32,928 bases of DNA, taken from IMG/VR virus record IMGVR_UViG_3300031785_000026, positions 1 through 32,928 of that record. One strand, given 5' to 3'. Both the position numbers and the translations under genes were made by a program. Positions 3,491 through 32,001 of the stretch are shown here, in pieces. Numbering within the stretch: position 1 is the first letter of the stretch; the number at the start of each line of letters is the position of its first letter. Source of the stretch: a virus. The notes under the pieces were generated by a model. The model was not told the DNA's origin and made no database searches. It was given only the letters and a program-made list of their open reading frames with translations.

Positions 3491-3531
3491 AGTATAGGAT
3501 AGTTATATAGGAAGTCAATGCCAAATGTCAA
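3491..3531 (-). promoter_or_regulatory. Overlapping sigma70-type promoters for the 456-residue gene
   Basis: Two candidates overlap. The first is TTGACA (3526-3531) and TATATA (3504-3509), spacer 16. The second is TTGACT (3513-3518) and TATACT (3491-3496), spacer 16. They begin at the last T of the terminator tract and end about 20 bases before the start codon, as expected for a fresh start of transcription after termination. Confidence 0.65.
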
Positions 3532-3560
3532 ATAAAAAAAGACCCAGATTTCTCTGGGTC
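3531..3560 (-). terminator. Rho-independent terminator
   Basis: On the minus strand GACCCAGA and TCTGGGTC form a perfect 8-bp stem around a GAAA (GNRA-type) loop, followed by seven T residues and ATT. The other orientation has only three T residues after the stem, so it works mainly on minus-strand transcripts. It ends the short transcript that starts near 3664 and would also stop read-through from the modification and replication genes upstream. Confidence 0.85.
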
Positions 3561-3664
3561 TTTCACAAACATTTTTAAAACAAAAGGCGTAATCGGAGCG
3601 ATTACATTCTTTTATGTTGAAGTGAACGCCAGCACGTCACTGGTACTTTCCCCATTCACCTCAT
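3531..3664 (-). ncRNA. Candidate phage small RNA with own promoter and terminator
   Basis: Between the promoter at 3670-3698 and the terminator is a ~130-base stretch without a convincing gene, yet rich in self-complementarity. GAGGTGAA (3655-3662) pairs with TTCACTTC (3619-3626), one G-U. Inside it CCAG/CTGG (3640-3643 with 3629-3632) closes a 7-base loop. GTAATCG/CGATTAC (3599-3605 with 3589-3595) forms a perfect 7-bp stem with a 3-base loop. The terminator hairpin is the last stem. GGCGT (3626-3630) can alternatively pair with ACGCC (3586-3590), which would compete with the first stem. A 17-codon frame (MGKVPVTCWRSLQHKRM) starts at an ATG three bases after GAGG, so a leader-peptide role is an alternative. 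I recognise no known RNA family. Confidence 0.55.
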
Positions 3665-3669
3665 GTATA

Positions 3670-3698
3670 TATATAGGTTATAACTACCCTAGTGTCAA
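3670..3698 (-). promoter_or_regulatory. Consensus sigma70-type promoter of the candidate small RNA
   Basis: TTGACA at 3693-3698 and TATATA at 3670-3675 are separated by exactly 17 bases. The -35 box overlaps the stop codon of the zinc-ribbon gene (3695-3697). Start of transcription is expected near 3664. No start codon for a sizeable gene follows before the terminator. Confidence 0.75.
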
Positions 3699-3976
3699 GA
3701 CATATCATCAATAATGCTTGAAGAGTTAACATGAGTTGGGTTTCTGCGTACTCTGCCAACATCATTTTCTTTTAAAGCTCTTGGATCATCCTCAAAGAAA
3801 GCTTCCTCTTCTACATAAACTGATGGCTTCATGCCAGTTAATGTTTCTTTTTTTGGTGCAAACTTATTTGTCTCTGCTGTCTCGCATTTTTCACATAGGG
3901 GTTTTTTCTTATTTTTAATTTTATGTGCAAGTATAAGTCTTGGACATGAGCTGCATCTTTCATATTTTCCTATCAT
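3695..3976 (-). CDS. Small zinc-ribbon-like protein
   Basis: The ATG at 3976 is chosen over one at 4012 because it lies six bases after a perfect AGGAGG; the product is then 93 residues. Near its N-terminus are two CxxC pairs, CSSC and CEKC, about 18 residues apart and separated by a basic stretch (HKIKNKKKP), the layout of a zinc ribbon that could bind nucleic acid or a protein partner. The rest is acidic (YVEEEAFFEDDPRALKE) and ends in a polar tail. It overlaps the end of the cytosine methyltransferase by 17 bases and is the last gene before the small RNA promoter. The exact function is unknown. Confidence 0.65.
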   Translation of the reverse strand: MIGKYERCSSCPRLILAHKIKNKKKPLCEKCETAETNKFAPKKETLTGMKPSVYVEEEAFFEDDPRALKENDVGRVRRNPTHVNSSSIIDDMS

Positions 3977-5363
3977 TCTCTGCCTCCTTAATAGAGTAAA
4001 ATATTCTTGCAACTACTTGGGGCACAATACTATTCCCTAAACATCTAAGTCTGTGTACCCTGTTGGGTACCCCATTAGCCACTCTACCCACGTTGGGTTC
4101 AGCGTTCCAGAGGACTGGTCTCTCACGGAAGGATGATTGCCTAACATCTTTTGCATCTTCCCCCCTGGACGACCCGCTGCATCTTCGTTTGCCGATGGTG
4201 TAGGGAACATCTCCTTTTTGGGATAATTCCATTTCTCCATTCTTGGTGGTCTGAGCGTGCAACCCAGCATCTGTTCTGCTTGTTGTTCGGTCATCTCCCC
4301 GGCCTCTACTTTCTTTCTGAAGATCATTGTCTGACCCATTGATGCGTGTCCGTACCCCTTTGTTGTCGGTGTTGGCCACATTATTTCTTTCTCTGCTATG
4401 AATGTCCCTAGAGTGTGTGCTCTCGTTCCGTTCTTTACTGAGGGTGGTACTGTGTATCCGTCCTTCCAATCCCTTGCTCTTGGTGTTGGAAACATCTTCA
4501 CTTCGTCCACTAATGTTATCGCACTTGATCCGTCTTTCTTCACTTTCTCGTAAAGTTCCTTGCTCTTCGGACCTTGCTTGGCATTCGCTGCTGTTGGTGT
4601 CCTCCACATCTTCACGCTGTCTGCTAAGTTCAGACTGTGACTGCTCTTGCCGTCTTTGCTCAACCTCCTGTTGTTCGTTGTCAACTCCGCCTCTGGGTGT
4701 TCTATCTCCTGAGTTGTTGGCGTTGGCCATAAGGTCGAAGATGTCTGTTTGTATAAATCCATTGTCTTCTCGTCCACTTGTTCCCTCAAGTTCGCTGGCT
4801 TTGTTCTGCCCTTGCGATGACCCTCCATTAATTTGTTCGTTCCCTCTTCTGAACGTGGAGGCAGATGATCCATCGTGTTCGGAGTAGCCCACAATCCAGC
4901 ACCGCATTCGTCTATGTTTGGCATCGACGGCTGCAGCTGGAATAAGATATGGGATGGCTTTGTATCCGATACTTTCCAAGTCAATGAGACTTCTTCTGAG
5001 ACCCATTGGCATTGTAACAAAGCCTGACACATTTTCGCCAATGATCCATTTAGGCCGTATGTCTTCAATAACCCTAACCATTTCGTGCCAGAGGTCTCGG
5101 TCATCTTCGCTGCCTCTCTGAGCTCCTGCGACACTCCAAGGCTGACATGGGAATCCTCCAACAACGATGTCTGCATCTTTGTATTCTTTTCCATTAAAAC
5201 TCCTTATATCACTATATATTGGTACATCTGACCAATGTTTACGCAAGACTTTTTGACAATATTCATCTCTTTCAACAAAAGCTATTGTCTCAAAGCCACC
5301 TACTATTTGTTCTGCAGCATAGCTAAATCCACCTATACCACTAAATAAATCTACTATTTTCAT
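3960..5363 (-). CDS. dcm: DNA C5-cytosine methyltransferase
   Basis: This 467-residue enzyme transfers a methyl group to C5 of cytosine in DNA, most likely protecting phage DNA from host restriction. Motifs are in the canonical order: DLFSGIGGF (5-13, cofactor), GGFPCQPWS with catalytic Cys73, GENVSG (ENV at 110-112), HRRMRCWIVG (about 150-159), and the C-terminal VPNRVHRLRCLGNSIVPQ of motifs IX-X. The ~270-residue part between them is long, charged and low in complexity, with repeated (A/S)N(T/A)xxxG segments. This part is also coded in the +1 frame. The ATG at 5363 is chosen because it forms an ATGA overlap with the upstream PP-loop gene and starts right at motif I. G+C is clearly higher between about 4040 and 5130 than at the two ends of the gene. 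Confidence 0.93.
   Translation of the reverse strand: MKIVDLFSGIGGFSYAAEQIVGGFETIAFVERDEYCQKVLRKHWSDVPIYSDIRSFNGKEYKDADIVVGGFPCQPWSVAGAQRGSEDDRDLWHEMVRVIEDIRPKWIIGENVSGFVTMPMGLRRSLIDLESIGYKAIPYLIPAAAVDAKHRRMRCWIVGYSEHDGSSASTFRRGNEQINGGSSQGQNKASELEGTSGREDNGFIQTDIFDLMANANNSGDRTPRGGVDNEQQEVEQRRQEQSQSELSRQREDVEDTNSSECQARSEEQGTLRESEERRIKCDNISGRSEDVSNTKSKGLEGRIHSTTLSKERNESTHSRDIHSRERNNVANTDNKGVRTRINGSDNDLQKESRGRGDDRTTSRTDAGLHAQTTKNGEMELSQKGDVPYTIGKRRCSGSSRGEDAKDVRQSSFRERPVLWNAEPNVGRVANGVPNRVHRLRCLGNSIVPQVVARIFYSIKEAENDRKI
4037..5194 (-). CDS. Overlapping +1-frame gene inside the cytosine methyltransferase
   Basis: A 385-residue frame lies wholly inside the methyltransferase gene in its +1 frame. 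It is not an ordinary shadow: its ATG at 5194 has AAGGAG five bases ahead, and the product has the features of a phage protein family I recall as common and of unknown function. It has SLTWK and LLFQL-like (ILFQLQPSMP) segments, then repeated [WF]PTP/RTP units (LWATPNTMDHLP, LWPTPTTQE, MWRTPTAAN, MFPTPRARDWKDG, IMWPTPTTKG, MFPTPSANEDAAG), and the tail LNPTWVEWLMGYPTGYTDL. The repeats and tail fall over the target-recognition region and motifs IX-X of the methyltransferase. Either both frames are translated, or this family is a conserved by-product of dcm sequence. The start site argues for translation. Confidence 0.5.
   Translation of the reverse strand: MEKNTKMQTSLLEDSHVSLGVSQELREAAKMTETSGTKWLGLLKTYGLNGSLAKMCQALLQCQWVSEEVSLTWKVSDTKPSHILFQLQPSMPNIDECGAGLWATPNTMDHLPPRSEEGTNKLMEGHRKGRTKPANLREQVDEKTMDLYKQTSSTLWPTPTTQEIEHPEAELTTNNRRLSKDGKSSHSLNLADSVKMWRTPTAANAKQGPKSKELYEKVKKDGSSAITLVDEVKMFPTPRARDWKDGYTVPPSVKNGTRAHTLGTFIAEKEIMWPTPTTKGYGHASMGQTMIFRKKVEAGEMTEQQAEQMLGCTLRPPRMEKWNYPKKEMFPTPSANEDAAGRPGGKMQKMLGNHPSVRDQSSGTLNPTWVEWLMGYPTGYTDLDV
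5195..5203 (-). promoter_or_regulatory. Ribosome-binding site for the overlapping +1-frame gene
   Basis: On the minus strand GGAG (5200-5203, within AAGGAG) is followed by TTTTA and the ATG of the embedded frame. In the methyltransferase frame these bases encode IRSFNG, a position with no reason known to me to hold a Shine-Dalgarno site, so its presence supports internal initiation. Confidence 0.55.
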
Positions 5364-21876: not shown

Positions 21877-24017
21877 TATCTTCTTCCGTCTTCCCTAATA
21901 TCAACTCTAGGTGTTCCCATCTTAAATTTACACCCTAATGCACTAGAATCAAGTCTTATTGCAAAAGATCTGCCTCTAATTCTATAATCTAGTTTTTCTG
22001 TAAACTGTTCAACTGGACTTGTTGCGGTTCTTGATGTTGTGCCCGTGCCTGTTTGATCAAAGTCAGAACCAGGAAAATCTCTTGCTTTGACTGTAAATGT
22101 TGCGTTTGGAGAACTGCCTGTTACAGATCCAGTAAATGTTAAATCTGGTATGACTCTTTTAAGTGATACAAACTTATCTCCGTCCCCTATGTCCATAGGA
22201 GCAGTTTCTATAAACGCAGTCATAGCAGAGGTGTCATCATCAAATCCAGACTCATGATTAAATAAATGTGGTGTGCTTGCAGCAATAGGAAAATTTCTTA
22301 TGCCACGATCTAACCAAGCTGTTCTTGATAAAGTTCCAAAGTACCACACCTTTTCTACATAATTCCAGATAACATATTTATCATTCTCTGATGCACCCGC
22401 TGATGGATAGAACCACCACACCTCACCAAACTCAGAATTAATACCCGCAACAACTTTATCTTTTTCTTCTAGGTTAAAGTTTGTAAAAACTTCATCTTTG
22501 ACTGTGCAAGGCAATTGTGCAGTTTGTCCAGCGTGTACATAAAAGTTGTCAATGCCCATCCAATATACCACATCCTCTGTAGCAATAGCTGCACTTGGGG
22601 ACATAATAGTTATATTAGATGCAATTTGTGTAATACCAAAAGTAAATGGCGGACCTATAAATCTCATGGAATGTAAAGACTTATCGGTATAAACAAGTAT
22701 TTCTCTTTTTGTTTCAACGGCTTGTACAAAAGTAGAGCCTGCACCAAGTCTTAAATCACCTGCAGTATTTGTTGCAGTTGGAAACCAGTCTACTGGATTT
22801 TCTTGACTACTAAATCTTATAAGTAAGGGATCTTGTACACCATTTCCTTGTGCAGCACTACTACTAGAGTTTACTGCATCACAACCAAAAGCTATAACAT
22901 GACGATCAACATCAGATACTAAAACTTGTTTTGCTATGGTAGGCACACTTTTTTCTCCACTAAACGTAGAGGTTGCACTAAGTTCTATAGCTCTAGCACT
23001 TGTGCCTAATGTTTTATCCCAATAAAACAAACTACTATCTCTTGCATTTATAATTAAATCTTCACCAAAATTGTCGTGTGACCAAGTTCTAATTTGTGCA
23101 CCAGGCACTGTAACACTTGCAGCATCACCCCAACCTACAAAGTCATCATCAGATGAGGCATTACCTTCAATTAAAAATACAGTTGTTCCATCTGCATGAG
23201 TGGCAGCCGTGGTTCCGTTTTGTGCTCTTGTTACTGTTAGATCGTTAGTAGATACATTTGTTACTTTTAAAATTTCTTCATCAATTAATATAAAATCATT
23301 GTTTGCTATACCAGTGCCACTTGTTACTGTGAGTGTCGTGTCTGAATCACTAAACGTACCGCCTTCATTTATTGTTGTTGATAAAGCACCACTTGTTGTA
23401 CCGCTCCATTGACCTGCACCCCAACCTGTGCCACCAACTGTATTATCTAATCCTGTGTTTATTTGATATGTTCCCACTGTGCTACCACCACCATTACCAG
23501 AATCTGATGAAGTAGCTGCAACGGCAGAAGTTATTGTGTAAGTATTAGAATTTATAAAAGTTTGTATTTGATATTCTATGTTTAAAACATCAGCTGTGAT
23601 ATTACCACCTAAACTAGCCGCGTCAGAAAAAGTTACAAAATCACCTGCTATAGCTCCATGTGCTTGATCCGTTACAGTTATTGTTGTTGACCCATTTGTT
23701 GCAGCAAAGGTAACGTCACCAGCACTTGTTGTGCTTCTAATAGGTGTGATATCGTTAAAAGTTTGACCTTCTTCAATATAATATTTTAAATGTGATCCAA
23801 CACCCAAGAAGTCAGATCCATCAAGAGCAACCCAGTTATGTAATCTTCTTGCTGTGCCCTCATAAGAGTTCGGACTAAATTTAACCCAACCACCTATTTT
23901 TTCTGGAAAACCAAAACGAAAACGTATCTTGTCACCATCAACATACCCACCTTCGTTAGCATAAGATGTTGTGTCTTTGATAATACCAGGTTTAAATTTT
24001 AAAGTTTTTATTGGCAT
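21876..24017 (-). CDS. P22 gp10-like tail hub / packaged DNA stabilization protein with insert
   Basis: The N-terminus (FKPGIIKDTTSYANEGGYVDGDKIRFRFG, key parts KPGI, EGGY.DGDKIRFR and PEKIGGW) matches the P22 gp10 tail-hub family, which seals the portal after packaging and attaches the tail fibres. Typical later parts are DPLLIRFSSQENPVDWFPT, REILVYTDKSLHSMRF, YVIWNYVEKVWYFG and CKFKMGTPRVDIREDG. At 713 residues it is some 240 longer than P22 gp10. The surplus is a Ser/Thr/Gly-rich beta stretch at about residues 95-290 containing ILIDEEILKVTNVS and TRAQNGTTAATHADG, which looks like an added beta-sandwich module. The ATG overlaps the upstream stop (TAATG). Confidence 0.83.
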   Translation of the reverse strand: MPIKTLKFKPGIIKDTTSYANEGGYVDGDKIRFRFGFPEKIGGWVKFSPNSYEGTARRLHNWVALDGSDFLGVGSHLKYYIEEGQTFNDITPIRSTTSAGDVTFAATNGSTTITVTDQAHGAIAGDFVTFSDAASLGGNITADVLNIEYQIQTFINSNTYTITSAVAATSSDSGNGGGSTVGTYQINTGLDNTVGGTGWGAGQWSGTTSGALSTTINEGGTFSDSDTTLTVTSGTGIANNDFILIDEEILKVTNVSTNDLTVTRAQNGTTAATHADGTTVFLIEGNASSDDDFVGWGDAASVTVPGAQIRTWSHDNFGEDLIINARDSSLFYWDKTLGTSARAIELSATSTFSGEKSVPTIAKQVLVSDVDRHVIAFGCDAVNSSSSAAQGNGVQDPLLIRFSSQENPVDWFPTATNTAGDLRLGAGSTFVQAVETKREILVYTDKSLHSMRFIGPPFTFGITQIASNITIMSPSAAIATEDVVYWMGIDNFYVHAGQTAQLPCTVKDEVFTNFNLEEKDKVVAGINSEFGEVWWFYPSAGASENDKYVIWNYVEKVWYFGTLSRTAWLDRGIRNFPIAASTPHLFNHESGFDDDTSAMTAFIETAPMDIGDGDKFVSLKRVIPDLTFTGSVTGSSPNATFTVKARDFPGSDFDQTGTGTTSRTATSPVEQFTEKLDYRIRGRSFAIRLDSSALGCKFKMGTPRVDIREDGRR

Positions 24018-25111
24018 TATAGTGCACTCGCTGAAAAGGTTCCGCTATATCCGCTAGTATCAAGGCTACCTGTGCCATTGTTAACGACTGCTAAAGCAAA
24101 AGGCTGACTACTGCCATCACTACCAGATATTGTCATAGTAATATTAAATGATCCATCTGTCGAGTTTGTTGATGTAGAAGTTGCAGTTGAACCAGCACTC
24201 ACAGTGACCCCATCAAAAGGATCTGCACCAGACAACACGCATGATATAGCTAAATTATTAGTAAAAACAAAGCTTCTATCATTACCAGATCTTACATATC
24301 TAAACCATAATCTTCTTGTACCAGAAAAATTTAATTGATGATTAGTTGTGCCAGAATATCTGTTATGACCACTAACAGAACCACCCACTAAACTAGAATA
24401 TATTCCTATACTACCACTATAATTAGAATATTCATCCATTCGTAATTGACTTACTGTATTAGGCTGAATTGTAGCAACATATAGTTTATATCCTCCACTT
24501 GCAGGAGATGTAGTGGTGCTTGTACTTGTATCACCAACAAATTGAAAAGCAGTTGTTCCATCTGTAACATTCATCGAATATTGTGTACTAGCCCCGCTAT
24601 ATGATCCAGAGAATATATTAGCAGCATTTGGAGTGCTGCCTCCAACTGTTGTTACTCCACTTGAGTCTATTGACGATCCATTATAAGAGTAGCTACCACC
24701 TGCATCTACATATTTTTCTACAGTTGTGTCTGTGTCTACATTGGAAACAACAATAGTAGAGCTGTCTGAATTAGAGAATGTTGTAGTTCCCGTATGACTT
24801 GTAGATGATTCAGTAGCTGTAGATGTTTTTAAAGTAGACTGAATATTACCGCTACCTAATAATTCTAAAGTTGTGCTTGAATTTGTTGTTAATGGCGATC
24901 CATTTGGATTTAATATATTGTTACCATTCGTATCTAATATAATTTTTTTATGAGCAGAGTCATTATTCAATGTTAAATTACCAGATATATTATCTGTAAG
25001 TTTGAAAAACTGTATAGGTAATTTGCTTTTAGCTGTACCAGCTTTGTCATTTAAAGTGCCTGCTGAGTCAACCTCTGTGAAACCTATATTTGAAATTAAA
25101 GGTATTGCCAC
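24017..25111 (-). CDS. Ser/Thr/Gly-rich tail-fibre or decoration protein
   Basis: The 364-residue product starts with a GTG at 25111, placed five bases after AGGTG. It is very rich in Ser, Thr, Gly and Asn and almost devoid of charged residues in its centre, giving a beta-rich extended protein. The N-terminus (MAIPLISNIGFTEVDSAGTL) differs from the other fibre proteins. YKLYVATIQPNTVSQLRMDEY and RRLWFRYVRSGNDRS are the only distinctive parts, and the end resembles an Ig-like domain (GSDGSSQPFALAVVNNGTG). It is placed between hub and fibre genes. The function is inferred from composition and place. Confidence 0.6.
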   Translation of the reverse strand: MAIPLISNIGFTEVDSAGTLNDKAGTAKSKLPIQFFKLTDNISGNLTLNNDSAHKKIILDTNGNNILNPNGSPLTTNSSTTLELLGSGNIQSTLKTSTATESSTSHTGTTTFSNSDSSTIVVSNVDTDTTVEKYVDAGGSYSYNGSSIDSSGVTTVGGSTPNAANIFSGSYSGASTQYSMNVTDGTTAFQFVGDTSTSTTTSPASGGYKLYVATIQPNTVSQLRMDEYSNYSGSIGIYSSLVGGSVSGHNRYSGTTNHQLNFSGTRRLWFRYVRSGNDRSFVFTNNLAISCVLSGADPFDGVTVSAGSTATSTSTNSTDGSFNITMTISGSDGSSQPFALAVVNNGTGSLDTSGYSGTFSASAL

Positions 25112-25118
25112 TTGTCAC

Positions 25119-26003
25119 CTAAAATTTAATTGACTCTATAAAAGTAAATACAGAACCATTTTGATTTATTGCTATTGCAAAAGAAGCTGAACTACCAAGA
25201 CTTACACCTTGTGAGTTAGACGGATAGCTTATTGTAAGCGTGTTAGAAGAACTTGTTTTATCTACGATTATGTATTGTCCTATAGCTAAACTACCTATGG
25301 CTAATGTTAAAGCCACATTGTTACTAGAAGTATCGACCTTTTGATAAATTGATTGTGCAGCAGAAGGTGTAAGTGTAGCCGAAGAAGATGTTATAGCACT
25401 TGGAACTGTTACAAGATTTGCATTAAAGTAGGTAGAAAAAGTAGCGGCAGTTGTTTGCCTCATTGTACCACCATCATTTGTTACAATGCCATCACTAGCT
25501 GCAACAGCCGTGGTTCCAGCACTTGTACCACCATCCATAAGATTAAGTTCTGCTGCGGTAGATGTAACTTTTGTACCACCAAAAGCAAAACCATCAAGTA
25601 AATCAGTAACTTTAGCACCAGATCCTGCACCATCTGCAAAAATAAGACCTTTTGATCCGTCTGGAATAGATACATTGCCACCAGAACCTTGTGTAAAAGT
25701 TGCAGTCTGACCAGAGTTGTTATGTACAAAATACATTTTATCTTGATCGTTTGGTGATATTGTAATTGTGTTTGTACCAGATGGCGATCCACCTAATACA
25801 AGAACTTTATTACCACCCTCTGACAATGCTCCGTCAGTCGTGGTTAATGTATGTGATGTGCCAGATAGTGTGATAGCTCCTACACCATTTACGGCTCTGT
25901 CTATAATATCTAGATTTAAATTAGTCGTTGTCCCCCAAGTTCCAGCTTGTTCACCAGAACCTATTTTTTCTACTCCTAAATTTGCTGTATAAGAACTTGG
26001 CAT
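25119..26003 (-). CDS. Tail fibre protein
   Basis: The 294-residue product begins SSYTANLGVEKIGSGEQAGTWG, followed by TTTNLNLDIIDRAVNG, an N-terminus I recall from many marine phage tail-fibre proteins. The middle carries VTSTAAELNLMDGGTSAGTTAVA and DGIVTNDGGTMRQTTAATF, also typical of such fibres. The C-terminal domain is beta-rich and ends in GSVFTFIESIKF, probably the receptor-side tip. It follows AGGG at good spacing and lies 7 bases after the upstream gene. It should attach to the virion through its N-terminus and contact the host surface at its C-terminus. Confidence 0.8.
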   Translation of the reverse strand: MPSSYTANLGVEKIGSGEQAGTWGTTTNLNLDIIDRAVNGVGAITLSGTSHTLTTTDGALSEGGNKVLVLGGSPSGTNTITISPNDQDKMYFVHNNSGQTATFTQGSGGNVSIPDGSKGLIFADGAGSGAKVTDLLDGFAFGGTKVTSTAAELNLMDGGTSAGTTAVAASDGIVTNDGGTMRQTTAATFSTYFNANLVTVPSAITSSSATLTPSAAQSIYQKVDTSSNNVALTLAIGSLAIGQYIIVDKTSSSNTLTISYPSNSQGVSLGSSASFAIAINQNGSVFTFIESIKF

Positions 26004-26010
26004 ATATCCC

Positions 26011-26490
26011 TCATGCGTTTATTTCTGTGTATGTTTCTGTACCACTTGGCGTTATCTCCGTCCATGTCTCTGTGCCACTTGGCGTTATCTCAGTATAAGT
26101 CTCATTTGCGTCTGGCACAATAGCTACATACAGTATATCTCCAGAAGTTGTTTTTGTAAAATTTAAATCTTGTGAAGATACACCAGAAAGTATAGCCAAA
26201 GCGTTTGTTGTGTTAGTAAAGATGCTCGACATAGTAACATCTGTAAAGTTAACTATAGCTATGTTTTCTGTGGTTTGTGTAAAGAGAGAATTAAAATCTA
26301 TAACACCACTAGATATAGTGCTAATTTCAGCGGTCTGAGTAAATTTACCACTTAATGATGAAACACCAACAAGTGTTCCAGAGCCTATGCTTGAGCTAGT
26401 GCCAAGAGCACTCATCTCTGCTGTAGCAACTTGTAAAACGCCTCCTACATTTGCAAAGGCAGCTTCAGCAAAAGAGGAGTTACCAAACAT
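26011..26490 (-). CDS. Fibre-cluster protein with C-terminal TETWTEITPSG repeats
   Basis: The 159-residue product has an N-terminal helix (MFGNSSFAEAAFANVGG), a beta-rich centre with imperfect repeats of FTQTxExxxI/FTNTTN type, and an end in tandem 11-residue repeats (TYTEITPSGTETWTEITPSG). From memory, tails of the form 'W.EI.P...ETW.EI' occur in marine phage structural proteins. The repeats are also visible in the DNA. It joins the next small gene by TAATG overlap. A fibre or surface role is inferred from composition and place. Confidence 0.65.
   Translation of the reverse strand: MFGNSSFAEAAFANVGGVLQVATAEMSALGTSSSIGSGTLVGVSSLSGKFTQTAEISTISSGVIDFNSLFTQTTENIAIVNFTDVTMSSIFTNTTNALAILSGVSSQDLNFTKTTSGDILYVAIVPDANETYTEITPSGTETWTEITPSGTETYTEINA
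26042..26091 (-). repeat. Two direct 17-base repeats with 33-base period
   Basis: ccacttggcgttatctc (plus-strand reading) occurs at 26042-26058 and 26075-26091. The 33-base period corresponds to the 11-residue repeat at the end of the fibre-cluster protein, so the array could grow or shrink by slippage without a frameshift. Confidence 0.85.
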
Positions 26491-26675
26491 TAATCTGCAT
26501 CCTTGATAGTTAGTGTTCCTGCATCGATTCTCTTTTTTATTTCTATATAATCTTTATTAGCTATGTCTGTAGGCACACTATAGACAGTTTCATTATATAT
26601 TACTTTTAATGCTTTGGTTGAATTGCTACCATCATCTTCTTTGTAATATTTTACAGTTATATTGTCATAATCCAT
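26490..26675 (-). CDS. Small 61-residue protein of the fibre cluster
   Basis: The ATG at 26675 follows AAGGAT at good spacing and the gene ends in a TAATG overlap. The product is charged and begins MDYDNITVKYYKEDDGSN, with a beta-hairpin-like segment (KALKVIYNETVYSVPTD) and a helical end (YIEIKKRIDAGTLTIKDAD). From memory, similar short proteins lie between fibre genes in marine phages. A role as chaperone or small tail component is only a guess. Confidence 0.6.
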   Translation of the reverse strand: MDYDNITVKYYKEDDGSNSTKALKVIYNETVYSVPTDIANKDYIEIKKRIDAGTLTIKDAD

Positions 26676-26685
26676 ATTTTAATCC

Positions 26686-27741
26686 TTAAAGTTCAGCATC
26701 AGCAAGATATTGTGTTGGATAATGAGTACCAGTAGAGGTGCTTGCCATCTGTGCGACAAATCCAAAAGGTGTGCTTGATTGTCTATTAAGAGTACCACTA
26801 CTAATAGTAGTAGTCATTGTTGGTGATGCTCTCATAGTTACTGGAAATGTATGTGGAGATATTGCAGAACTGTTTGGTAAACCAGCACTTACTTGAGCAG
26901 GACTATATGGCGAATAAAAATTATACATATCATCTAATCCAGTGTTTGTCCATTTGTAAAAATATCTCTGACACAAACCAAGCTCTTCCCCAACTGACCT
27001 ATGCTCAAATGGTGTGGCTACTTCGCCTACTTCCATTTGCACTCCAGTTAGAAAAAACTCTCTATCTGTGCTATCATAAAACGAGGTTTGATTATCTCCA
27101 ATTCTTTGATTTCCTGTAGTATGCCAAACATTACTCGTGTGTGTTCCCCCTGTAAAATCACTACCTGCATGAAGCCAAAGAAATAAGTAAAGAGATAGAT
27201 TATTATCATTGTCTATTGCACCAGTTGTATCTCCATCATATGTAAGTGTAATTCTATTCCATGATGTTGTTACAGAAAACTCTTGCGAGTTAAATCTTGT
27301 GTTGTCATGGTCACGAAGTTCAGCAGTATATGTAGCATTTGCATTCCCTTTTACATAGAAAGATACAGTTACTTTTTCTGCATCACTTGTTCCCTTTTTT
27401 AGTTGTTGTAAATTCTGACCCTCTATAGGTTGACCAATTATTAATCCCTCACTTGAACCAATAGATGTATCTGCTGTAGTACAAGCTAACTTAACAGAGT
27501 TTGGAAATCCATTTGGTGTATCAGTGCTTTGTGTCATGGTAAGCCTACCTGCTGTGCTACCAAATCCATAAATTGCAAATCTATCTACAGTAGAAAAAGT
27601 TGCACTGCCACCTAAATCAGTAGCACTTGTTGCTCTCTGTGCCACTTGCATTGCACCATTTATAATTATATTTCTACGACCCCCAATCTGACTATTGGTT
27701 AGGACTTCACCCATCTTTGCTAATTCTGCGGCTTTACTCAT
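26686..27741 (-). CDS. Tail fibre / carbohydrate-binding-module protein
   Basis: The ATG at 27741 is chosen: it lies seven bases after GGAG in the GDLA-coding end of the previous gene and overlaps its stop (ATGA). The 351-residue product begins SKAAELAKMGEVLTNSQIGG, then RRNIIINGAMQVAQRATSATD, and VDRFAIYG, a start I recall from many cyanophage and other marine phage fibre proteins. The centre has a jelly-roll-like carbohydrate-binding module (VTVSFYVKGNANATYTAEL, WNRITLTYDG), and LTGVQMEVGEVATPFEHR followed by LCQRYFYKW is the typical end of such modules. It probably binds host surface sugars. Confidence 0.82.
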   Translation of the reverse strand: MSKAAELAKMGEVLTNSQIGGRRNIIINGAMQVAQRATSATDLGGSATFSTVDRFAIYGFGSTAGRLTMTQSTDTPNGFPNSVKLACTTADTSIGSSEGLIIGQPIEGQNLQQLKKGTSDAEKVTVSFYVKGNANATYTAELRDHDNTRFNSQEFSVTTSWNRITLTYDGDTTGAIDNDNNLSLYLFLWLHAGSDFTGGTHTSNVWHTTGNQRIGDNQTSFYDSTDREFFLTGVQMEVGEVATPFEHRSVGEELGLCQRYFYKWTNTGLDDMYNFYSPYSPAQVSAGLPNSSAISPHTFPVTMRASPTMTTTISSGTLNRQSSTPFGFVAQMASTSTGTHYPTQYLADAEL

Positions 27742-28145
27742 GCTAAGTCTCCGTGATATACTATACAAACAGGGTCATAATCTATGTTTTCATCATTGTC
27801 ATTTCTAATAGTAGTATGCCTATTTGATGAAGAAGTCATATTAGCCTTAGTGTCAATAGTAACAAGTCCTTCGTCTTCTCCAGAACCACCTCCTGATGGA
27901 TTGGATGTAGTCATGCCAGATGGAACATAAGTTGCATTTCCCATATTGCTTGATAAAGCTACACTTACATCACCTGTACCATTGTCTGTAATGCCGCTGC
28001 AATTTAAAGAATCAACTAATGCTGCTGTTCCTATTTGATCTATATTTGCCCACATTTTAGCACTACCACCTGCTACAAAACTCGTGGCAATACTATTATT
28101 ACTACTTGCATCTGTTAATGTGTTTACTCTTAATATACTAGCCAT
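27738..28145 (-). CDS. GDLA-family fibre paralogue 6 (135 residues)
   Basis: One of six related proteins. The shared core is readable: KMWANIDQIG..A..DSLNCSGITDNGTGD, followed by beta strands with LSSNMGNATYV, and the end CIVYHGDLA. This copy starts MASILRVNTLTDASSNN and is the third of the left module. Its centre (GMTTSNPSGGGSGEDEGLV) differs fully from the other copies, as expected for a variable tip. Its start overlaps the stop of the previous copy (TAATG), and its last codons hold the ribosome-binding site of the next gene. Confidence 0.72.
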   Translation of the reverse strand: MASILRVNTLTDASSNNSIATSFVAGGSAKMWANIDQIGTAALVDSLNCSGITDNGTGDVSVALSSNMGNATYVPSGMTTSNPSGGGSGEDEGLVTIDTKANMTSSSNRHTTIRNDNDENIDYDPVCIVYHGDLA

Positions 28146-28558
28146 TATGCTAAATCTCCAAATATTTGATGATAGACTTCAGTCCATTCATAGTTATGAG
28201 GTCCGTTAGCATCGTGATATCCGATGTCATATCTTATAGAACTTGTCGTTATTGTTTGAGTTAATCCACTAAAGAAAGAACCTGATGCACTTGCAGCGTA
28301 ACCACCACTGAGACTAACACTATAATTTGCATTTGCCATTAAGGTGGTAAAAGAAAAAGTATTATCCCCAGTTCCATGGTCTGTGGTATGGCTAGAATTA
28401 AATGAATCAGCTACAGTTCCACCCCCATTATGTTGAGACCATGCTTTACATAACCCTTGTTGCAGATTAGTTGTTGTACTATTGCCTTCACCTGTAACAA
28501 GTATAGAACCTGCTGTGGTTACACCAGTAAATTTATCTACTTTAAGTTCACTAGCCAT
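28145..28558 (-). CDS. GDLA-family fibre paralogue 5 (137 residues)
   Basis: This member starts MASELKVDKFTGVTTAGSIL and continues with VTGEGNSTTTNLQQGLCKAW. This N-terminal half is nearly the same as that of the copy at 31588-32001, which shows recent relationship between the two modules. The shared core is DSFNSSHTTDHGTGDNTF and LMANANYSVSLSGG, and the end is HQIFGDLA. The region between core and end is unrelated to that of its closest relative, so the tip varies faster than the base. It is coupled on both sides by TAATG overlaps. Confidence 0.72.
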   Translation of the reverse strand: MASELKVDKFTGVTTAGSILVTGEGNSTTTNLQQGLCKAWSQHNGGGTVADSFNSSHTTDHGTGDNTFSFTTLMANANYSVSLSGGYAASASGSFFSGLTQTITTSSIRYDIGYHDANGPHNYEWTEVYHQIFGDLA

Positions 28559-28983
28559 TATGCTAAGTCTCCGTTAACTTGTGTCATAGCAGGGTCTTGG
28601 TCTTCTAAATTTACACCACCATCTGAAACTAACAATCTGTATTTGTTTGTAGCAAGAGTTGCTGCTCCAAGCACCGAAGCATCACCAGGACCTGCAGGAC
28701 ACGCACCTGCAATCGAGTATACAGTATTGTTCATATTGTTAGTGAAAAAAGGGTCATAGTCACCTGTGCCATCGTCAGTAACTGAAGCACAGTTAAAACT
28801 GTCACTTATAGCAATAGTTCCTGTGCCATCTAAATTTAGCCAATGTTTAGCCAACCCTTGCACAGTATTTTGTGTAGCACTACCACCATCAGCCACATAG
28901 GTAGATGTATTACCTATCTTAACATTCGTGCCACCACTACCTGCTTTATCTACAATGGTGTCTACATTGAGTTGACTTGTCAT
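28558..28983 (-). CDS. GDLA-family fibre paralogue 4 (141 residues)
   Basis: The ATG at 28983 is taken because GGAG lies six bases upstream and it forms an ATGA overlap with the MPYIG gene; a TTG at 28995 is rejected. The product begins MTSQLNVDTIVDKAGSGG with TNVKIGNTSTYVADGGSATQ, and so is closest to the copy at 31998-32438, the first in the other module. The core reads VQGLAKHWLNLDGTGTIAIS and DSFNCASVTDDGTGDYDPFF, and it ends TQVNGDLA. The order of copy types thus starts in the same way in both modules. Confidence 0.72.
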   Translation of the reverse strand: MTSQLNVDTIVDKAGSGGTNVKIGNTSTYVADGGSATQNTVQGLAKHWLNLDGTGTIAISDSFNCASVTDDGTGDYDPFFTNNMNNTVYSIAGACPAGPGDASVLGAATLATNKYRLLVSDGGVNLEDQDPAMTQVNGDLA

Positions 28984-29438
28984 ACGATACTCCAATAACC
29001 ATTAACAGTAACTGTCGCTGATTGTGTTATAGGTCCAGCACTTACGCCATTTTCATCTGAGTCTATGGTTATGTCTGCACTAATAGTCTGACCATTTAAT
29101 CTTATTATACTATTGTTTCCCTTGAAAGGATACCTCGTATCTGACTCATTCTTTGTATAAGAGTTGGCAACTGTAAAAACATCATAAACAACCATTTCTA
29201 CGATATCATTTAAACTGGCTGCTTGAACTAATACAACTGTCGTACCAGTTGTTGCAGTATAGTCTGTTCCTGGAACAAGCAATACACCATTCTGATAGAC
29301 ATCCATGTACCTTGAGTCATTATAACTTAGAGATAAAGAGTTAGCATCTGACCCACTAAAGCTAGTCTGACTAGCCGTGGCTTGATACTGAAACCTACTT
29401 CTTACTCCAAAATTTTCTGATCTTCCTATATATGGCAT
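28980..29438 (-). CDS. MPYIG-type tail fibre protein (left module)
   Basis: The 152-residue product begins MPYIGRSENFGVRSRFQYQA, then SYNDSRYMDVYQNGVLLVPG and ATTGTTVVLVQAASLNDIVE. I recall this start and middle as very common in marine phage fibre proteins. It ends with AGPITQSATVTVNGYWSIV, a fibre-type beta end. It resembles the protein at 32435-32890 in layout (strand-rich domain with V..DG/NGV, then a repeat-like end), and each is followed by three GDLA paralogues. It probably forms the virion-bound base of a fibre, with the GDLA proteins as partners; this is inference. Confidence 0.78.
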   Translation of the reverse strand: MPYIGRSENFGVRSRFQYQATASQTSFSGSDANSLSLSYNDSRYMDVYQNGVLLVPGTDYTATTGTTVVLVQAASLNDIVEMVVYDVFTVANSYTKNESDTRYPFKGNNSIIRLNGQTISADITIDSDENGVSAGPITQSATVTVNGYWSIV

Positions 29439-29440
29439 AA

Positions 29441-29791
29441 CTAACCTTTCGGATACTTGTCTTTAATTGTTTTAATTGTGCTTTTCCAACCATCTATACC
29501 ATTGTGATATAAATCATCTAGTTGGTCTTCTATGGATGGATATTCTAATGCTCTTTTTCTTTGATATTCATTACTATTATAAGCAATTTGTAATTCTTGT
29601 TTTTTATCTGTTATTTGTTTCCAAGTAACACCAAATTTAGATTCATCATCACTTAATATGGCTGAACCACTTGAATCTTCACCAACTACTTTTTTAAAAT
29701 ACTTTTTAAATTCATCTTCTGTAGAAGGTATTTTTTCCAAAGCGTAATTAGATATTCCTAATTCTTTTAATACGTCTGCGATATGTATCAT
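29441..29791 (-). CDS. Phage accessory tail protein with 'YPSIEDQLDDLYHNGIDGWK' end
   Basis: The 116-residue product has an N-terminal helical part (MIHIADVLKELGISNYALEK, STEDEFKKYFKKVVGED) and ends in EYPSIEDQLDDLYHNGIDGW followed by KSTIKTIKDKYPK. This end is a pattern I recall from many phage tail-cluster proteins of unknown role, often near fibres and tail chaperones. AGGAT precedes ATG 29791. It is soluble and charged, unlike the neighbouring fibre proteins, so it may be an assembly factor rather than a virion part. Confidence 0.68.
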   Translation of the reverse strand: MIHIADVLKELGISNYALEKIPSTEDEFKKYFKKVVGEDSSGSAILSDDESKFGVTWKQITDKKQELQIAYNSNEYQRKRALEYPSIEDQLDDLYHNGIDGWKSTIKTIKDKYPKG

Positions 29792-29799
29792 ATTTTATC

Positions 29800-30285
29800 C
29801 TAAGTTAATATAGGTGAACCTATTTCCATTATTGTAAATGTAGAAAGATTATTATTAATTTGACTATAAACATTACCACTTACTTTTTTATGTTTAAGTT
29901 GATAAGTAATTGAACTTGTAGTGTTTGGATTATCTAATAAACAAGCACTAACACAGTTAGGATAAGGTCCATATACATATTGAGCACCATATTGTCCACC
30001 ACTACTTAAATCAGTTGAATCTCTAAACACAGTTAAAGCAGAAACAGCACTTGAAGCTGCATATAAATTAACATTATACATAATTAAAATTTTGTTTGAA
30101 GCTGAAGATGGTGTAATACTTAAACTTGAAACTCCATTTGCAACATAACTTGTGCTATCAGTTAAAGATTCACTTGAATTACTTGTGCCTTTTACTTGCA
30201 GAATAGAAGCACCAGTAACTGACCCAGTAAAAGCAAAAGCATCTGCTAAATTTATACCCTCTGCTTGTACTTTAGTTAAAGCCAT
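29800..30285 (-). CDS. Tail-fibre-type protein (MALTKVQAEG family)
   Basis: The 161-residue product starts MALTKVQAEGINLADAFAFT, then GSVTGAS, an N-terminus I recall from many marine phage fibre proteins. A beta-rich domain follows (SVLQVKG-like ILQVKGTSNSSE, SLSITPSSASNKILIMYNVN, LTVFRDSTDLSSGG) and closes with FTIMEIGSPI. The GGAG site seven to eight bases before ATG 30285 is part of a GCATAAGGAGTAA sequence also used before the gene at 30673. It probably forms a short fibre or a fibre head domain. Confidence 0.75.
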   Translation of the reverse strand: MALTKVQAEGINLADAFAFTGSVTGASILQVKGTSNSSESLTDSTSYVANGVSSLSITPSSASNKILIMYNVNLYAASSAVSALTVFRDSTDLSSGGQYGAQYVYGPYPNCVSACLLDNPNTTSSITYQLKHKKVSGNVYSQINNNLSTFTIMEIGSPILT

Positions 30286-30295
30286 AACTTACTCC

Positions 30296-30673
30296 TTATG
30301 CGTATGGACTATCGCCTAATACAGATGTATCCCATGCTGCTTTGAGCTTTGCAATAGTATCTGCATCAGATATGGCTTTAGCTGCTGGTGCATCTCTTAG
30401 TGCTTTCTTTTTAGCTACACTCGCAGTCTTTGCACTTGCGTCATCTGCTTCTAATGCTTTCATATACACAACATCTTCTGCTTCAAGCAAAGGCTTTCTT
30501 ACCTCTCTAATCTTATCTTGAAAGATCTTCTTAGCTTCTGTCATGTCTTCTGATATAACCTTCTTGTCTGAGTCTACGACCCAAGCACCTCTAAAGTGTC
30601 TATCAGATGGCTTAGTAACTGTAGAAGCATCTACAGTAACACCATTTTTATCTACTATATTTGTTGTCGGCAT
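30296..30673 (-). CDS. Phage tail-cluster protein, 125 residues
   Basis: The product opens with a short strand region (TTNIVDKNGVTVDASTVTKP), then HFRGAWVVDSDKKVI, and is then a long charged helix (MTEAKKIFQDKIREVRKPLL, EADDASAKTASVAKKKALRD) ending in AWDTSVLGDSPYA. The 'FRGAW...I..D...AK.I..DKIR..R.PLL' pattern is one I recall from phage tail-assembly proteins related in layout to DUF4376/XkdW-type accessory proteins. GGAG lies six bases before its ATG. A chaperone role for fibres is possible but not shown. Confidence 0.65.
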   Translation of the reverse strand: MPTTNIVDKNGVTVDASTVTKPSDRHFRGAWVVDSDKKVISEDMTEAKKIFQDKIREVRKPLLEAEDVVYMKALEADDASAKTASVAKKKALRDAPAAKAISDADTIAKLKAAWDTSVLGDSPYA

Positions 30674-30683
30674 TTTTTACTCC

Positions 30684-31169
30684 TTATGCTACTTCTTCTA
30701 AATTTACTACATTTTCATCAATCTTCCAAGCATTACGCCATTCTCTTGTGCTTGGTAGCTGATCTTTTTTACAAATCACTAATCTTGGTTTATTAGCTTT
30801 ATCATAATTTCTCCACACTCTTTGTGGTATGTCTTTCATAATTAAATATTCTATGGCTTGTTCTTCTGTCATTGCTTCAACTGGTTTTGTGTTATGGAGT
30901 AAATATCCTCTTGTATGTTTCTTAAAGTCTGGCTTTGCTTCATCTTCTGCTAACAGCCAATACACTTCTACTGGTGGCAGTATGCCGCCTTGTAAAGCAC
31001 AAGCCATCCAGTTTGGATCAGGCACAGTTATTTTTGCACATTCATCTGGTTTGTCTGGGTCTTCCCATACAATACGATAGTCTGATTGTTTGCCCTCTAA
31101 GTTTTCTTTTGCCCAACACAATCTATCCCATAAATGTGTGCCTTGAAACTTTGGTGTTTTTATTGTCAT
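30684..31169 (-). CDS. Phage protein of tail cluster with 'VPDPNWM...EVYW' region
   Basis: The 161-residue product is charged and has several distinctive parts: YRIVWEDPDKP, AKITVPDPNWMACALQGGIL, PPVEVYWLLAEDEAKP, EAMTEEQAIEYLIMKDIP and REWRNAWKIDENVV. From memory these occur together in a phage family of unknown function near tail fibres; the C-terminal 'R.WRNAW' also ends tail-assembly proteins. It starts at an ATGA overlap with the third GDLA copy of the right module, using the GGAG within the GDLA codons. It is probably an assembly protein rather than a fibre. Confidence 0.65.
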   Translation of the reverse strand: MTIKTPKFQGTHLWDRLCWAKENLEGKQSDYRIVWEDPDKPDECAKITVPDPNWMACALQGGILPPVEVYWLLAEDEAKPDFKKHTRGYLLHNTKPVEAMTEEQAIEYLIMKDIPQRVWRNYDKANKPRLVICKKDQLPSTREWRNAWKIDENVVNLEEVA

Positions 31170-31588
31170 GCTAAATCTCCTAATACAGTTGAACAGTTTA
31201 AGCCGCCATCTTGTTGTGTTCCACCATCTCCGATAGGTTGCACTCCATAAGAACCAGTTGCTTGTGCTCTTATTTGTGCAAACTGTCTGTCTCCACCTGT
31301 TGTAAATTCTTGTACCTCTTGAGCAGTAGCACCATTATTTGAATAAAGATAAGCATTATCGTCTGTGCTCATATTATTAGTGAGTGTAATTGTAAATTGT
31401 CCTGTTCCATTATCTGTAGCACTTGTAGTGTTAAAAGAATCACGAAAGGTTGTGCCACTACCTGCATAGTTTGACCATTGTTTAGGAATAGAATTAAAAA
31501 GGTAACTCGTATCAATAGACTTCTCTGTACCAGTGTTAACTGAATCAGATGTTGTTAATGTATCAAATGCTATTGTTCCGTTTGCCAT
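31166..31588 (-). CDS. GDLA-family fibre paralogue 3 (140 residues)
   Basis: This member begins MANGTIAFDTLTTSDSVNTG. The shared core reads KQWSNYAGSGTTFRDSFNTT and SATDNGTGQFTITLTNNMST, and it ends GGLNCSTVLGDLA. The core is present, but the N-terminal part is unlike that of the other copies. It takes the third position in the right module, as the copy at 27738-28145 does in the left one, and these two are the least like the others. It is coupled by TAATG at its start and ATGA at its end. Confidence 0.7.
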   Translation of the reverse strand: MANGTIAFDTLTTSDSVNTGTEKSIDTSYLFNSIPKQWSNYAGSGTTFRDSFNTTSATDNGTGQFTITLTNNMSTDDNAYLYSNNGATAQEVQEFTTGGDRQFAQIRAQATGSYGVQPIGDGGTQQDGGLNCSTVLGDLA

Positions 31589-32001
31589 TATGCTAAATCT
31601 CCGTGTACTGTTGCATAAACATAATCATTGTCATAAAAAGTACCATTTCCAAAAAATGTATCTTGTTTAAAAACTCCTGCACCAGTGACCCAAACTTCAT
31701 CACTACCTACATAATTATTCCCTGCTGTTGAATCATAAGATGAAGAGACTACTGGTGTGTATGTAGCATTTGCCATGTCTGAATTTATATTCCATGTACT
31801 TTGTCCTGTAGCATCATCAGACCAAGAACTTATATTAAAGCTGTCTTTGAGTTCTACTGTGGATGTTCTTTGTTGGGCATACCCATATGCTTTAGCCAAC
31901 CCTTGTTGTAAGTTCGTTGTAGTAGAACCACCCTCTCCTGTAACAAGAATGCTACCTGCTGAAGTTGTACCTGTTAAGGTGTTTGTCTTAATGGTACTCA
32001 T
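31588..32001 (-). CDS. GDLA-family fibre paralogue 2 (137 residues)
   Basis: This copy starts MSTIKTNTLTGTTSAGSILV with TGEGGSTTTNLQQGLAKAYG, almost the same N-terminal stretch as the copy at 28145-28558. The core reads ELKDSFNISSWSDDATGQST and NSDMANATYTPVVSSSYDS, and the end is VYATVHGDLA. The part between about residues 85 and 125 (VGSDEVWVTGAGVFKQDTFF) has no counterpart in its relative. It is a good example of a shared base with an exchanged tip. Overlaps are ATGA at its start and TAATG at its end. Confidence 0.72.
   Translation of the reverse strand: MSTIKTNTLTGTTSAGSILVTGEGGSTTTNLQQGLAKAYGYAQQRTSTVELKDSFNISSWSDDATGQSTWNINSDMANATYTPVVSSSYDSTAGNNYVGSDEVWVTGAGVFKQDTFFGNGTFYDNDYVYATVHGDLA

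Follow-up and report, generated by a model that had tools for sequence, protein, structure and literature searches.

Several described RNAs resemble parts of the locus studied here. AgvB and AsxR, the anti-sRNAs of lambdoid prophages, are phage-encoded Hfq-type sRNAs (PMC4104026), the put RNA of phage HK022 binds the zinc-binding domain of the RNA polymerase β′ subunit (PMC9378689), and the manA and wcaG RNAs are located in the leaders of T4-like cyanophage genes (PMC2864571). The RNA described here was predicted in a 32.9-kb virus record, referred to as the window. Like AgvB and AsxR, it is a free-standing short phage transcript (a predicted one in this case) with a conserved 3′ part and a U-tailed terminator; however, its sequence and setting are different, and its length is ~85-129 nt as compared with 51-60 nt. 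Its 5′ hairpin shares with HK022 put RNA a promoter-proximal position in phages, conserved unpaired positions and, in L015 and L017, a tandem arrangement, but it is a single hairpin of ~46 nt with another sequence, for which binding to RNA polymerase is only hypothesized. As with the manA and wcaG motif RNAs, structured domains are found in marine phage gene leaders, including those of hsp20 (ibpA), whereas the present hairpin has no match in Rfam, starts at +1 and also occurs on a non-coding RNA. With the 5′ stem-loops of the ompA and papA mRNAs (works cited in PMC3997798), the hairpin shares a 5′ end that is paired from the transcription start, but it differs from them in its nearly invariant bulge and loop. 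What appears to be new is this portable 5′-terminal hairpin, and the sRNA family would join an already known kind of phage sRNA. The sRNA family and the structured RNA domain would both be uncatalogued additions to the RNAs of marine phages.

The predicted transcription unit and its sRNA body

The segment 3531-3698 (minus strand) is best explained as one transcription unit, predicted to yield an untranslated RNA of ~129 nt. It is flanked upstream by the gene P0002 (3695..4012, minus strand), encoding a 105-aa zinc-ribbon-like protein (CxxC..CxxC), and downstream by P0001 (2100..3485, minus strand), encoding a 461-aa protein with no function assigned. The window also encodes a DNA methyltransferase, a primase/helicase, a Cas4-like nuclease, a helicase and a Sak4-like protein, and the best phage matches of its structural protein include Roseobacter and Pelagibacter phages at ~30-42% identity. 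In a C-5 cytosine DNA methyltransferase encoded at 3960-5393 (minus strand), the catalytic motifs are separated by a long, polar insert of low complexity (residues ~170-400).

The promoter of the unit (3670..3698, minus strand), called by sequence and conserved in L039-L070, consists of TTGACA (3698-3693), a 17-nt spacer and TATATA (3675-3670). The zinc-ribbon-like ORF upstream ends with a stop codon that overlaps the −35 box, and the predicted +1 is near 3662 on the minus strand. The promoter scanner listed no promoter at 3698, as TATATA breaks its rule of T at position 6, and the call is therefore based on TTGACA, on the spacing of 17 nt and on its conservation among relatives. This promoter may resemble the alphaproteobacterial heat-shock promoters (CTTG-N18-CCTATAT). 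The intrinsic terminator GAAAGACCCAGA-GAAA-UCUGGGUCUUUU (minus strand; stem 3564-3537, or 3534..3564 with the U-tract) covaries in relatives. It is followed by the promoter region of the next gene (3491..3531, minus strand), with TTGACA at 3531-3526 and a scanned TTGACT-16-TATACT at 3518-3491, which is conserved in many relatives. One relative (L005) has a tRNA gene (5919-5989) between this downstream promoter and the P0001 gene. All three signals are present on the minus strand as the original prediction had described them, with no convincing gene between promoter and terminator, and the unit has, as would be expected of an sRNA gene, its own promoter, a U-tract intrinsic terminator and no conserved coding frame.

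The RNA 3664-3531 folds at −47.4 kcal/mol, compared with −27.4 ± 3.55 for shuffled sequences (z −5.6, 0/200), and z drops to −3.0 when the terminator is removed. Instead of four independent hairpins, the fold comprises three domains, of which the first is a compound 5′ hairpin, the second hairpin 1 inside a short outer helix and the third the terminator. The Rfam scan proposed as a check was carried out on the unit and on the 5′ hairpin and matched no family at gathering or lax thresholds (manA and wcaG included), and BLAST of a longer window segment against 50,697 phage records returned short chance matches only.

The 3′ part of the unit, an ~85-nt terminated RNA (about 3613-3534), was identified at the same location in 32 other viral contigs by a pattern scan for CCTTTTGTTTTAAAA..TGTTTG; in these contigs the unit follows an upstream gene end of the same type. 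Relatives were also collected via the downstream protein P0001 and the upstream zinc-ribbon-like P0002, and those with a complete intergenic region and the unit contain the promoter, a variable hairpin, the same CCTTTTGTTTTAAAA..TGTTTG pattern and the terminator, without the 5′ hairpin of the window. Hairpin 1 (UGUAAUCG-CUC-CGAUUACG, 3588..3606, minus strand), the perfect 7-bp stem with a 3-nt loop that had been pointed out from the start (GTAATCG CTC CGATTAC), is located within the short helix AUAAAAG/CUUUUGU. Its arms covary, with 76 of 76 cells paired in 11 sequence types, several double changes and no match among 10,000 re-deals of the right arms, the arm register having been set by eye because MAFFT misaligned some arms; the pairs include TGTAATC/GATTACG, AGAAATC/GATTTCT, GGTGATC/GATCACT, AATGGTG/CACCATT and CGGAATC/GATTTCG.

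The linker CCUUUUGUUUUAAAAAUGUUUGU (3565..3587, minus strand), pattern-matched in the 32 contigs, is identical in the unit-bearing relatives of P0001 and P0002, which were not chosen by the linker. As CCUUUUGUUUUAAAA..UGUUUG it is invariant among the sRNA copies, and both linker and unit are retained even where identity of the P0001 protein falls to about 34-51%. The 3′ part of the linker, UUUUAAAAAUGUUUGU, is predicted to be single-stranded and is a candidate seed or chaperone-binding site. The terminator varies with its pairing intact (GACCCAGA/UCUGGGUC, GGCCUGGA/UCCAGGUC and, in L065, GGCGGGUU/AACCCGUC). Six sRNA members fold at z −4.1 to −6.4; in most of them, hairpin 1 is enclosed by the short outer helix AUAAAG/CUUUUGU and the terminator is preceded by an unpaired stretch, UUUUAAAA..UGUUUGU. 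Conserved structure is combined in the sRNA body with a conserved exposed stretch; on comparative grounds, such a profile is that of a functional RNA, and the body is on the same grounds an intergenic phage sRNA family. The best guess is that it would act as an Hfq-type trans-acting sRNA. Duplex energies of the linker, computed against the window's own translation starts only, were not in excess of those of shuffled linkers, and within the sequence of the window the linker had no outstanding target site.

The 5′ hairpin module

The view of the segment as a self-contained regulatory-type RNA is supported, since 32 contigs share the promoter, the covarying hairpin, the invariant linker and the terminator, and the conservation does not follow codons, which would have refuted it. 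As the relatives share the body without the hairpin, the window unit is a composite of an sRNA body and an extra 5′ domain. The hairpin is missing from all 32 other sRNA copies and, as only 1/33 carries it, is dispensable for them; in an alignment with L050, L069 and L049, a block of ~49 nt is found only in the window. The parsimonious reading, drawn from this absence in 32 relatives, is that the hairpin of the window was gained by insertion and not lost in the relatives, all compared sequences being metagenomic contigs. A clean insertion of 54 nt is seen between the hsp20 leaders of L191 and L193, with one other mismatch over the aligned leader, and these near-identical leaders with and without the module make its function directly testable.

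The inserted module (3618..3663, minus strand) consists of the outer stem P1 with 11 pairs (3663-3653 with 3628-3618), the 9-nt 5′ bulge GGGAAAGUA (3652-3644), the stem P2, CCAGU/GCUGG, with 5 pairs (3643-3639 with 3633-3629), and the pentaloop GACGU (3638-3634), which is GRCGU across the family. Among its members, the module is about 46-54 bases long and the bulge 9-10 nt. All 160 of 160 cells hold standard pairs on 10 distinct sequences, and 5 pairs show double-sided changes (14 cells), including a C-G to U-A double change within P2 of L135. The covariation score was reached by none of 500 shuffles, controls that leave the relatedness among the sequences in place, and slid structures pair 36-47% of cells. 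Several pairs are G-U, so that only 134/160 survive on the complementary strand; the structure is therefore one of the sense RNA. P1 is changed at 5 of its 11 pairs while the bulge and pentaloop are nearly invariant; the hairpin is an RNA element with double-sided compensatory changes around a fixed unpaired core. The invariance of the 27-nt core is partly built in, as the pattern scans demanded much of it, and may alternatively result from recent spread; the variant in L120 and L135, with one extra A in the bulge, indicates that some change in the core is tolerated.

Two features had been read differently. An action of the purine-rich GAGGUGAAUGGGG on ribosomes or mRNAs is not supported: GAGGUGAAU forms the 5′ strand of the outer stem and varies in concert with its pairing partner (GGAAGUGAAU, GAGGGUAAAU, GAGAGUGAAU), only the bulge GGGAAAGUA being fixed. 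The complementarity of GGCGT and ACGCC, considered as an alternative pairing, is present, but a switch is not supported, as ACGCC is replaced by ACACC, ACUCC or other sequences in relatives. The occurrence of AACGCC in hsp20 leaders was discarded as evidence for such a switch, as L193 has it and lacks the hairpin. The covariation check in related phage contigs turned out positive for the stems of both the sRNA and the 5′ hairpin.

In pattern scans, the exact 20-mer GTGAATGGGGAAAGTACCAG was identified in 8 viral contigs and the 27-nt core GGGGAAAGTACYARYGRCGTGYTGGCG in 16, those 8 included; with L120 and L135, found through the hsp20 protein, the hairpin is present in 18 contigs besides the window. 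A further contig added by the relaxed core (L029) lacks the stems and is not a real member. Four settings are represented, namely the sRNA of the window, the leader of hsp20 (Pfam HSP20; ibpA) in L013, L021-L028, L120 and L135, the head of an early operon encoding an ERF recombinase (L014-L018), and the junction of an ssb-like gene and a helicase gene in L019 and L020, two relatives of the window whose helicase is 78% identical. The early operon lies opposite an HTH-like ORF that was called from sequence and has no Pfam match. L020 encodes a distant P0001 homologue with no sRNA unit ahead of it. Among hsp20 loci, 11 of 80 carry the hairpin, and in L015 and L017 the element is preceded by a second hairpin, which shares its outer stem but has a different core.

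The hairpin is oriented in sense with the downstream gene in every case. In three of the four settings (window, hsp20 and early operon), P1 begins exactly 7 nt past the −10 hexamer of promoters with 17-nt spacers, and the transcript is therefore predicted to begin with the hairpin there. No promoter is evident at the hairpin in L019 and L020; as this hairpin and the second one in L015 and L017 are off an evident transcription start, 5′-terminal placement is not obligatory. The strict core has no occurrence in 84,980 bacterial and archaeal genomes (GTDB), where the relaxed core gave 48 matches, five with at least 8 of 11 outer-stem pairs and none with the whole structure, and these are regarded as chance. 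The covariance model R2 matched neither of two single genomes, and neither the hairpin nor the L016 leader had a BLAST match in 50,697 phage records.

Candidate roles of the hairpin

On balance we favor a two-part RNA whose parts have separate histories, a trans-acting sRNA body and a transferable cis-acting 5′-terminal domain. The exposed linker and the U-tailed terminator of the body would bind an Hfq-type RNA chaperone and pair with target RNAs in trans. The 5′ domain would fold on leaving RNA polymerase, with its own 5′ end base-paired, and a protein would recognize the fixed bulge and pentaloop, which could be RNA polymerase itself, as for HK022 put RNA, or an RNA-binding factor; this recognition would then alter, in cis, the stability or elongation of the RNA behind it. 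The fixed start register, the sense orientation, the covarying stems and the near-fixed bulge and loop argue for an RNA domain that acts on its own transcript and is specifically recognized. By this analysis, a protein partner or RNA polymerase would come first among the candidates, followed by plain 5′-end protection and then by a ligand aptamer. The repeated exact placement at predicted starts of unrelated RNAs suggests that promoter-proximal RNA control modules are exchanged among phages as parts. A wider proposal, which we regard as possible but doubtful, is that marine phages place a portable +1-initiating hairpin on unrelated mRNAs and an sRNA and that its action on their fate, mediated by a dedicated partner such as RNA polymerase, represents a new class of promoter-proximal RNA regulators.

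The foremost alternative, still an unlikely one, is that the hairpin merely protects the 5′ end against RppH/RNase E-type 5′-end-dependent decay with no specific partner. P1 starts at the predicted +1 at three promoters, relatives lacking the hairpin start unpaired or with a weak helix, and 5′-terminal stem-loops stabilize mRNA according to works cited in PMC3997798. However, a stem alone would suffice for protection, yet it is the 9-nt bulge and the pentaloop that are nearly invariant while 5 of 11 P1 pairs changed, and two placements are not evidently 5′-terminal.

Somewhat less probable is a put-like antitermination or antipausing element, with which RNA polymerase would pass the 3564-3537 terminator into P0001 and the unit would be a leader and not an sRNA. 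HK022 putL sits just 3′ of PL (PMC9378689), and the hairpin is likewise promoter-proximal, heading the ERF recombinase operon opposite the HTH-like ORF in L014-L018 and standing in tandem in L015 and L017. Nevertheless, put membership failed the sequence and structure test, model R2 having no match in HK022 22000-32000, which should span the immunity region, and put RNA is ~70 nt long with two stem-loops. In addition, P0001 has promoters of its own, sRNA relatives retain the terminator without the hairpin, and the other hairpin leaders have no nearby terminator.

A small ligand-binding aptamer (riboswitch) similar to the manA or wcaG RNAs is less likely again. A conserved unpaired core between covarying stems would suit an aptamer, as would the presence in phage hsp20 (ibpA) leaders, ibpA chaperones having been reported behind manA RNAs (PMC2864571), but the copies share no expression platform, the hairpin is also found on a non-coding sRNA, manA and wcaG give no match even at E 10, and the strict core is absent from the 84,980 bacterial and archaeal genomes.

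A mobile DNA palindrome, inserted near promoters and without any RNA role, is an improbable reading of the hairpin. The clean insertion, the presence in four settings and the short matching flanks (ACAT/ACAT in the window) are compatible with such mobility; however, G-U pairs and substitutions leave the structure complete on the sense RNA only (160/160 versus 134/160), the orientation is always sense, and the start register is constant, 7 nt past the −10 hexamer. A leader peptide encoded by the 17-codon frame MGKVPVTCWRSLQHKRM (3655-3604) has an ATG after a purine-rich stretch and a frame open for 15-20 codons in several copies, but it is hardly credible and was rejected, as one additional base breaks the frame in L135, P-A-A stands against P-V-T and the C-termini differ elsewhere, changes track base pairs and not codons, and the segment is wholly missing from the sRNA relatives.

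Other structured elements in hsp20 leaders and in the window

Most phage hsp20 leaders (L119-L198) contain a conserved hairpin with a fixed AUGCCAUUAAGGGU-type loop and, behind it, UCUUGCUUUUAAAGGAG immediately ahead of the start codon; examples are L119:1445-1500 and L193:1440-1500, and it is also present in Pelagibacter phage Mosig (L200). This hairpin is possibly a thermosensor or a translational operator. Other inserted hairpin modules are found in the hsp20 leaders of L123, L126, L128, L139, L160, L174, L182 and L186, and those of L123, L139, L160, L174, L182 and L186 gave no match in Rfam. One such module has GACCAC..GUGGUC followed by AACACAAAA, a tail type shared with the 5′ hairpin studied here.

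A second structured RNA, also with no Rfam match for the window copy, is located at 11903-11818 (minus strand) of the window, between the ssb-like and helicase genes, and additionally at L049:355-442, L046:7321-7409 (minus strand) and L020:2384-2468. It contains a hairpin CUAGC..GCUAG, UCGG/CCGA and GGGUAG/CUACCC (pseudoknotted), and its long-range helix GCGGCA/UGCCGC is changed to GCGGUA/UACCGC in L046 and to AGGGC/GCCCU in L020.
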